Positions 20,163-30,700 of a DNA stretch of 36,781 nucleotides are shown here, piece by piece (positions within the stretch are counted from its first letter, which is position 1; each line of letters opens with the position of its first letter). The translations under genes were made by a program, and so were the position numbers. Source of the DNA: Bosea beijingensis (GTDB lineage Bacteria > Pseudomonadota > Alphaproteobacteria > Rhizobiales > Beijerinckiaceae); the NCBI RefSeq assembly GCF_030758975.1, contig NZ_CP132359.1, forward strand, positions 5,426,114 to 5,462,894, written 5' to 3'. The notes under the pieces are model-generated. The model saw nothing but the letters and a program-made list of their open reading frames with translations. It searched no databases and had not been told where the DNA came from.

Positions 20163-20187
20163 GGAACCGATCCTTCAATCGATCGTT
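20163..20187 (+). promoter_or_regulatory. EcfG-type promoter for the zinc-ribbon gene
   Basis: GGAAC (20163-20167), 16 nt, then CGTT (20184-20187): an exact match to the alphaproteobacterial general-stress sigma consensus. Predicted start is near 20195, about 50 nt before the ATG at 20244. Confidence 0.75.
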
Positions 20188-20189
20188 CC
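20165..20189 (-). promoter_or_regulatory. EcfG-type promoter for the dehalogenase gene, overlapping the opposite promoter
   Basis: On the minus strand GGAAC (20189-20185), 16 nt, GGTT (20168-20165). It shares its bases with the plus-strand promoter at 20163-20187, forming GGAAC-N17-GTTCC. Predicted start is near 20158, about 45 nt before the hydrolase ATG. Confidence 0.68.
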
Positions 20190-29503: not shown

Positions 29504-29528
29504 GGAACGTGACAGCACGCACTATGTT
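29504..29528 (+). promoter_or_regulatory. Plus-strand EcfG-like face of the DUF892 promoter
   Basis: GGAAC (29504-29508), 16 nt, TGTT (29525-29528), overlapping the minus-strand promoter as GGAAC-N17-GTTCC. A transcript would run rightward from about 29536, where I see no convincing coding gene. Confidence 0.4.
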
Positions 29529-29530
29529 CC
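29506..29530 (-). promoter_or_regulatory. EcfG-type promoter of the DUF892-katE unit
   Basis: On the minus strand GGAAC (29530-29526), exactly 16 nt, CGTT (29509-29506): a full consensus match. Predicted start is near 29499, about 28 nt upstream of the DUF892 ATG at 29471. Confidence 0.8.
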
Positions 29531-29984
29531 AGACCCTAAACTAGCTACTGGCCGGCCCCGTTTCCTGCGGGCTGGACGATGCTATTCCAATCAGTTTCTC
29601 GGCTGGCGCCGGGCGACCTGTCTCCCTGTTCTGGCTATTTCGTCTAGCGGGTAGGGGACGGCCGCTGCTCTGTATTTGTCACTGATGCCTACCGTCTCGC
29701 CGCGGGCGGTTTGTTAAGCAGAAAAAGATCGCGGCCCGTCCGCGCTGCGTCCGGCGCGAGCTCAGCTCGATGTCGGAGATTGTCTCAGCTGCTCAGCAGT
29801 AATTTGCCCGCCACGGTCCGGGCATATCCGGGCAGGAGCGCCAGTTGCCTTGGGATATTGCTCCAGGGCGTCGAGACGAAGCCGCGACCGCCGGAACGCA
29901 AAAATAAACCGGAGGTCCAACATTAGACGTCTGAGTTGCCCCACCAGAAGTAGATTAGCCGGTTAATTTATGGCGGCATTTGTC
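29531..29984. other. Intergenic stretch without a supported gene
   Basis: Short frames exist on both strands (for example a 60-codon GTG frame at 29762-29944 minus), but none has a good ribosome binding site or a recognisable sequence. The region separates the DUF892 promoter from the candidate small RNA. Confidence 0.5.
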
Positions 29985-30065
29985 GTCTAGGAGAAAGAAG
30001 GAGGCCGACACAAGGGGGAGATATCGGCCTCCTTCGATACGCGATCTCATGGCACCATCGCGTGC
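29985..30065 (-). ncRNA. Candidate stress-induced small RNA
   Basis: A consensus EcfG-type promoter (30072-30096, minus) is not followed by a convincing ORF. Its predicted start near 30065 leads into a roughly 80-nt transcript with two hairpins. The 5' stem pairs GCGAT (30061-30057) with ATCGC (30045-30041). The 3' hairpin has perfect 11-bp arms (30034-30024 and 30008-29998) and a 15-nt loop holding a run of five C. The tail is CTTTCTCC, so the terminator is only moderately U-rich. The C-rich loop could pair with Shine-Dalgarno regions. Organisation and control recall GsrN, the sigma-T-dependent sRNA of Caulobacter that targets katG, but homology cannot be claimed. Alternative: a structured 5' leader, since the first arm contains AAGGAGG. 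Confidence 0.5.
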
Positions 30066-30071
30066 GCATCC

Positions 30072-30096
30072 AACGCCGCCACGATGCACGAGTTCC
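30072..30096 (-). promoter_or_regulatory. EcfG-type promoter of the candidate small RNA
   Basis: On the minus strand GGAAC (30096-30092), exactly 16 nt, CGTT (30075-30072): a full consensus match. It points away from the small genes at 30315-30700 and toward the hairpin pair. I see no gene in 30097-30314. Confidence 0.75.
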
Positions 30097-30314
30097 TTAG
30101 AGGGAAGCGCATGAGCGGGCTCAATGGTTTTCGGAAGGCCATCGGTTCTCGATCGCTTGCTTAAGCGAAATGAGCCCAGCCACGACTATACGTCGGCCGG
30201 ACTAAAAGCACCCTTGTGTCTCGGCCGCGAGGTAGCCCGCAGGCACAAGAGTGCGTTGAGGTCGGCCCAGCGAGCAGTCTTAAGGCCTTGGCCGGGCGAA
30301 TTACCTAACCCAAG

Positions 30315-30547: not shown

Positions 30548-30700
30548 CTAACTTAGGATATGATGATATTTCGCCTGCTCCTGATTTGCGTTCGCGAGCA
30601 TCGCTTCAAGCTCGAACAAGGCCGCCACGGGGAGGATCGTCAGCACGTCTGCATCCCCCGCCATTTCAAACTTAATCGTGGCGTCGCTGTCAAATAGCAC
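30548..30700 (-). CDS. Possible 50-residue ORF, DUF1488-like
   Basis: With a GTG start at 30700 the product begins VLFDSDATIKFEMAGDADVL, followed by PVAALFELEAMLANANQEQA and a short tail. The V.F...D..I.F......L..L pattern loosely recalls the DUF1488 fold but lacks its usual start and end, so it may be a decayed copy. A shorter ATG start gives 38 residues. Neither start has a good ribosome binding site. Confidence 0.3.
   Translation of the reverse strand: MLFDSDATIKFEMAGDADVLTILPVAALFELEAMLANANQEQAKYHHILS

Follow-up and report, generated by a model that had tools for sequence, protein, structure and literature searches.

The window locus and its promoter

The window, the whole 36,781-nt stretch of Bosea beijingensis DNA analysed here (contig NZ_CP132359.1, positions 5,426,114 to 5,462,894), carries on its minus strand an EcfG-type promoter that leads into a segment with two predicted hairpins. 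Downstream of this RNA segment, Pfam assignments place a DUF892 gene and then katE. Upstream, on the same strand as the RNA, a 77-aa ORF is followed by an inverted repeat of 27 nt with 78 % complementarity, which is absent from the entries of the terminator scan. With a terminator-like repeat following the ORF, the window promoter probably opens a separate unit. The features of the locus are as follows.

30195–30267, minus strand: terminator-like inverted repeat behind the 77-aa ORF, with TTTTAG past the inner stem (repeat search)
30072–30096, minus strand: EcfG-type promoter GGAAC-N16-CGTT (GGAAC at 30096–30092, 16-nt spacer, CGTT ending at 30072)
30063–30065, minus strand: expected transcription start, about 7–9 nt past CGTT, from promoter geometry
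30039–30063, minus strand: 5′ hairpin ACGCGAT/ATCGCGT, 7 bp, with 11-nt loop GGTGCCATGAG (fold)
29997–30035, minus strand: 3′ hairpin GAAGGAGGCCGA/TCGGCCTCCTTC, 12 perfect Watson–Crick pairs with 15 nt between the arms (inverted-repeat search and fold)
29958–29977, minus strand: possible remnant of the downstream module described below, GCCGC-CATAAATTAA-CCGGC with a 10-nt middle (read from the sequence)
29900–29912, minus strand: CCGGTTTATTTTT, a weak candidate for a later 3′ end, forming an AT-rich inverted repeat with 29959–29972
29722–29744, minus strand: terminator-like CGCGGACGGGCCGCG plus ATCTTTTT, a weak candidate for the outermost 3′ end (terminator scan)
29506–29530, minus strand: separate promoter of the EcfG type ahead of the DUF892 gene (motif search)

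The full-consensus stress promoter of the original prediction was recovered as an exact match. On its own, the consensus is weak evidence, close to chance: the motif occurs three times in the window against 0.86 expected, a number reached by 9 of 100 shuffles, and genome-wide there are 128 sites against 106 for the reversed pattern. Elsewhere in the window, at 20163–20189, two EcfG-like sites overlap on opposite strands (GGAAC...CGTT on the plus strand and GGAAC...GGTT on the minus strand).

The combination of promoter and hairpin at the window locus is more than chance. A promoter-first scan covered 1.38 Mb of the 5.56-Mb genome (G000), comprising the window and stretches partly picked as EcfG-rich, and required a perfect hairpin of at least 12 bp with a 9–18 nt loop within 120 nt after a relaxed EcfG site. 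Three of the 141 relaxed sites qualified, namely the window locus, G000:C1:3787717-3787842 and G000:C1:4184260-4184384; the latter two are copies of the long-form family described below and had earlier been turned up by covariance searches. A qualifying hairpin was present in 29 of 20 000 random 120-mers and followed none of the reversed EcfG patterns in the same 1.38 Mb (none of 54 relaxed and none of 32 strict sites). Among the 60 strict EcfG sites there, the window site was the only one with such a hairpin.

The layout of a short 5′ hairpin followed by a perfect 3′ hairpin with CCCCC in its 15-nt loop was as had been predicted, with the stem being 12 rather than 11 bp long; the fold adds two or three inner pairs. 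The folding energy of the 83-nt segment is −35.9 kcal/mol, whereas its shuffles average −22.57 (z −4.66), and none of 200 shuffles was as stable. The U-poor tail, already named as a weak point, was confirmed as one: the terminator scan, which counts loops of 3–8 nt only and returned two sites against 1.1 expected, does not have this hairpin among its entries, and a script search of the window found no U-tailed terminator-like hairpin within 330 nt. The C-loop hairpin is a possible weak terminator.

Probable related EcfG-driven RNAs in Bosea

Plain BLAST found no orthologue of the window segment in the two genome sets searched. In a set of 61 genomes, with 36 from the genus and 24 from the order, five including the source genome matched the segment, and the four non-self matches were chance-like pieces of 25–41 nt. 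The surrounding 1.5 kb, compared with 67 Bosea genomes, gave short or unrelated matches and none on the RNA; most DNA matches of this region in other Bosea were to a 50-aa ORF region (window 30556–30687, minus strand). Against 72,556 plasmids, nothing was found for the window or for a G000 copy, while a copy from genome G078 (G078a) matched the Bosea plasmid pNBC550 only. Conservation of the hairpins in close relatives, on which the original prediction had been made to depend, is thus absent by BLAST and is seen only with structure-aware models, in relatives that are divergent.

Three covariance models were used. The first (R1), from the window segment alone and with the promoter not included, yielded 17 rows other than itself at E≤0.1 across the 67 Bosea genomes, two of which, in G078 (Bosea sp. 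NBC_00550) and G026, had an EcfG-type promoter just upstream. The best non-self match, in G066 (E 1.4e-4), was discarded for having no EcfG promoter, as were several GGGCCGGCTCC hairpins. The second model (R2), from the window, G078 and G026 loci, exposed further copies, with promoters read for part of its rows. The third (R3) was built from a 12-copy alignment (A5) with the window copy and G026 left out, and returned 31 rows in the 67 genomes: 15 strong rows, all with a promoter, two opposite-strand echoes, four weak rows with a promoter (in one case only inside the match), nine weak rows without and one that was unreadable in a short locus (L256). A literal pattern of promoter plus GAAGG...CYTTCTT was specific but too narrow, being found in two of the 67 genomes (the source genome and G026) and in no controls.

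Two further patterns were observed in these searches. Genome G023 contributed 20 R2 rows, 18 of them with an identical score, on C1 and C2 (for example 614835–614907); these are probably repeated or transposed sequence, and the one row read (L209) had no promoter. Another element recurs in Bosea, at L167, L169, L172, L173, L175, L212, L215 and L218; it consists of CACGTCCCCACCCACCCGTCCCC with a GGGCCGGCTCC hairpin behind it, and no EcfG promoter was seen at it.

Across the order, R1 gave 10 non-own rows at E≤0.05 in 297 genomes and R3 gave five at E≤0.001 in 397 genomes, none with an EcfG-like promoter. Because these scans scored few candidates per genome, about 15 for R1 and 8 for R3, absence outside Bosea is weak evidence, and it is within a limited sample that the family seems confined to Bosea. 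R3 over 80 named DUF892 loci, mostly from Rhizobiales, gave 13 rows at E≤1, the best at 18.5 bits.

The strong R3 rows comprise 15 long-form copies at 83.7 bits or above in five of the 67 Bosea genomes: eight in G078, two each in G000, G017 and G022, and one in G020. All 15 have GGAA[C/T]-N16/17-nGTT at position −24 or −25 relative to the start of the model, nine of them with CGTT, and this recurrence is not chance since the relaxed pattern has a frequency of only 8.4e-5 per position. The long form, as read from A5, is built of three hairpins. The loop of hairpin 1 contains C (ACCC, TCCC or ACC), a well-conserved UGCCAAGAUGACCA marks hairpin 2, and the stem of hairpin 3 resembles GAAGGGAGCC or GAAGCGAGCC and carries a loop that is mostly rich in C. 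Pairing in A5 extended to 94.8 % of cells compared to 89.0 % in shuffled alignments, cells changed on both sides numbered 25 against 10.6, and covariation was 0.304 against 0.210, each value being reached by none of 500 shuffles; the pairing was lost when partners were slid. The number of pairs with a change on both sides (48 of 500 shuffles) and of further pair types (332 of 500) was not exceptional.

Between long copies with unrelated flanks, BLAST likeness runs from the −35 box or later until roughly 40 nt beyond the model match, and in some pairs further. The 15 copies are not all independent, because some in G078 share more upstream sequence, two lie inside a 4.7-kb duplication, and the G000/G017 pairs are syntenic orthologues. 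Strict EcfG sites around 17 loci were about six times denser than genome-wide (0.14 vs 0.023 per kb), a figure in which six of the loci have none and two pairs are orthologous.

With respect to known families, Rfam at gathering threshold found only a single tRNA in the window and no match in eight loci with relatives; at E≤1 the window segment likewise had no match. A gene for a small protein starting MPFSS.SDP.D.ARAQ lies on the strand of the RNA in 8 of the 15 long-form loci searched (L191, L195, L231, L232, L237, L239, L240 and L273), just upstream of the RNA in L191 and L195, and the two examples scanned had no Pfam match. One family copy overlaps the annotated HWE histidine kinase gene NWE53_RS27315 (NZ_CP102773.1:59011-59652), whose annotated start falls inside hairpin 3; the true start may lie downstream.

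Allowing up to three substitutions, a module hairpin tip GCCG-CGGAUGUAC-CGGC is found shortly past hairpin 3 in 11 of the 15 long copies. A T-tailed terminator-like hairpin lies 117–123 nt past the model match in 10 of the 20 non-window copies (7 of 15 long, 3 of 5 short); the other ten have one elsewhere in two cases and none by script in eight. From this spacing, the full transcript in the ten terminator-bearing copies is probably about 250 nt, with hairpin 3 internal.

A second RNA type with the same module was found in G000, G017, G022 and G078, with a further copy on pNBC550. Its loci are as follows.

L198:3911, minus strand (G000:C1 near 4,181,910): type-2 RNA
L229:9063, plus strand: type-2 RNA
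L233:10236, plus strand: type-2 RNA
L235:8944, plus strand: type-2 RNA
NZ_CP102773.1:487739-487906: type-2 RNA, plasmid copy, with no gene annotated there

In this type an EcfG-type promoter lies about 74 nt upstream (in G000 with CATT for CGTT), and a strong U-tailed terminator is present in three of the four loci that could be followed to the end; the RNA is probably over 200 nt long. BLAST of the type-2 RNA against the same plasmids returned pNBC550 and 13 records at E 2–8, taken as chance. Across 15 sequences of both types the module tip is nearly invariant, and 5 of 12 predicted pairs are changed on both sides. The exact module 17-mer occurs three times in the 1.38 Mb, each behind an EcfG-like promoter, and its reverse does not occur. 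With up to two mismatches there are six matches (three for the reversed motif), the three extra ones being without a promoter, and with up to three there are 26 (67 for the reversed motif). Only near-exact matches are therefore informative.

Among the EcfG-type sites listed for G000:C1, clusters were observed at 2.64–2.65 Mb, containing the GSR core, at 3.77–3.83 Mb, with two DUF892 genes and a long-form copy, and at 4.18–4.19 Mb, with a long-form copy and a type-2 RNA copy.

Probable place of the window RNA beside the family

The R3 score of the window copy was 30.7 bits at 29983–30088, a value not fully independent since the R3 seeds came via R2, which included that copy. In the 1.38 Mb, the window copy ranked third after the two long copies (114.4 and 110.0 bits), and the next match, outside the family, scored 22.5 bits. 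The faster whole-genome R3 scan listed the two long copies of this genome and not the window copy, which appears when searched directly, and elsewhere in Bosea a 29.5-bit match has no promoter. Most of the window score comes from the counterpart of hairpin 3, the window 3′ hairpin, which shares the GAAGG/GAAGC-type stem and C-rich loop. The window 5′ hairpin aligns roughly to hairpin 2 in R3, with gaps and broken pairs; UGCCA is present in both, unaligned by the model.

An EcfG promoter lies upstream of the window copy as in the rest of the family, nearer than in the long forms because hairpin 1 is absent. The window copy has a single 5′ hairpin, lacks the conserved UGCCAAGAUGACCA of hairpin 2, and has no intact downstream module. 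What may be the arms of the module start 19 nt past the C-loop hairpin (29977–29958), with the conserved loop lost; the chance of such GCCGC/CCGGC arms within 8 positions is about 0.0023, judged after the fact. Five other short forms have a close EcfG-type promoter (G026, G067, G070, G076 and G022:C3:22416), and those of G067 and G076 bridge short and long forms because they join the close promoter to the module.

Promoter, EcfG machinery in the genome, the terminator-like repeat upstream and a layout that recurs in Bosea all favour the earlier claim of an EcfG-driven small RNA, probably non-coding, and it is very likely that the window gene is one. Homology to the long-form family is the reading we prefer, at a probability of roughly 0.65. 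As not all defining long-form features are found, the window copy is not filed as a full member and is probably a short, divergent relative.

It is unlikely, though it is among the stronger alternatives, that the window RNA is EcfG-driven yet unrelated to the family, with GC-rich GAAGG...CCTTC hairpins being simply a common terminator style in Bosea. Similar hairpins do occur without EcfG promoters, for example L164 in G066 and L204 in G016, and the window copy differs from the family in hairpin 1 and in the downstream module. Against this stand the score gap of 30.7 to 22.5 bits in its own genome, the short forms of G067 and G076, and the possible module remnant at the expected place.

Carrying about the same low likelihood, and overlapping with the preferred explanation, is a decaying copy in which promoter and hairpins are kept and the functional module is lost. 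The window copy could be decayed since hairpin 1 and an intact module are missing, the CGGAUGUAC loop is replaced, the tail is U-poor and there is no good terminator at the family distance. The module is also missing from 4 of the 15 long copies. The full-consensus promoter and perfect 12-bp stem argue against decay, which over a long time would be expected to damage both.

Transcription from the promoter is very unlikely to yield a leader or a short coding RNA in place of a non-coding one. A 44-aa GTG frame overlaps the segment, and inspection by eye shows a short ATG frame from 30069, slightly upstream of the expected start, that runs through the hairpins. The GTG frame begins within the promoter and has no Pfam match. 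In addition, loop lengths among the relatives differ by non-multiples of three, and DUF892, the next recognisable gene, has its own EcfG-type promoter.

Possible targets, precedents and meaning for Bosea

GsrN, the best-studied alphaproteobacterial general-stress sRNA that we found in print, had been offered as the precedent for the window RNA. In PMC5869019, GsrN is described as a sigma-T-dependent sRNA of Caulobacter crescentus that activates katG, its C-rich loop pairing with a G-tract in the katG leader. In the same source, 32 of 67 predicted interactions are via the C-rich 5′ loop, 31 of the targets having G-rich sequences, and GsrN usually lies beside ecfG-nepR-phyR, with C. crescentus itself an exception (PMC5869019). 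Predicted EcfG-dependent sRNAs, picked near ecfG-nepR-phyR, are given there for Rhizobiaceae, Brucella, Rhodopseudomonas and Bradyrhizobium (PMC5869019).

The precedent holds in outline. Endonucleolytic processing to a stable 5′ isoform and an effect of Hfq are further marks of GsrN. Like GsrN (about 100 nt), the window RNA combines a stress ECF-sigma promoter, a short structured RNA and an exposed C-rich loop. Unlike in GsrN, the C run is in the 3′ rather than the 5′ hairpin, no catalase leader pairing was found by plain duplex energies, and the RNA is probably kin to a family that occurs in multiple copies in Bosea and has one more conserved module. It also lies far from the core locus: the PhyR, NepR, EcfG and HWE/HisKA_2 kinase genes are together near 2.65 Mb, with nepR at 2,648,922 and the window RNA at 5,456,098–5,456,180, about 2.8 Mb apart. 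Membership of GsrN is not supported, the likeness being one of layout. A GsrN orthologue shielding the cell from peroxide via the neighbouring catalase mRNA would fit the EcfG promoter, the two hairpins, the C-rich loop and the nearby katE, but is scarcely credible given the position of the C run, the distant core locus, the katE leader result below and the lack, in a search with katE as query, of a catalase gene within 100 kb of any of the 15 long-form copies.

An EcfG promoter and an exposed C-rich loop are also shared with the predicted Rhizobiaceae sRNAs. By description, the window RNA and its relatives differ from these and from the predicted Brucella, Rhodopseudomonas and Bradyrhizobium sRNAs in being dispersed.

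C-rich-loop sRNAs also include RNAIII, CcsR and alpha-r14. By description, the window RNA resembles these in that its C-rich loop could base-pair with ribosome-binding sites rich in G, and differs in promoter control.

For the window RNA, the following mechanism is envisaged. Under stress, EcfG polymerase would start near 30064, and transcription would stop at the C-loop hairpin, giving an RNA of about 80 nt, or read through to a later U-rich site. The exposed loop would then pair with G-rich, Shine–Dalgarno-like stretches of several mRNAs and change their translation or stability, and the RNA may in this way tune stress proteins. We give action by C-rich loop pairing an even chance. The proposed action on katE is not supported. 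In a comparison of plain duplex energies that leaves accessibility aside, the katE leader was equalled or exceeded by 89 % of random 80-mers when the whole RNA was the partner and by 82 % when it was the loop. With pairing no better than random, katE was rejected as a target, and a role as the main one is highly improbable. By the same measure, the DUF892 leader was in the top 4.3 % with the loop alone, while 98 % of random sequences were equal or better with the whole RNA.

The long-form family, apparently undescribed so far, is dispersed in multiple copies over the genomes of some Bosea. Among the papers listed from the open-licence literature, to which the search was confined, no Bosea stress sRNA was found, PMC8103513 included, and of set phrases for EcfG- or RpoE2-dependent sRNAs only 'GsrN homolog' turned up, in PMC5869019. 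Such a dispersed family with variable C-rich loops also explains why plain BLAST misses the relatives of the window gene, and an EcfG promoter together with the module is offered as a rule for finding further genes.

A broader picture, which we advance tentatively and at somewhat less than even odds, is that some Bosea have a modular multi-copy sRNA arm of the general stress response, with up to eight long-form genes per genome, a second architecture, a shared GCCG-CGGAUGUAC-CGGC and diversifying C-rich loops. The shared hairpin would dock one protein or RNA partner and the loops would choose targets, with the window gene as a short diverged offshoot. If this is true, the sRNA arm of the stress response would be expandable in the manner of a protein family.
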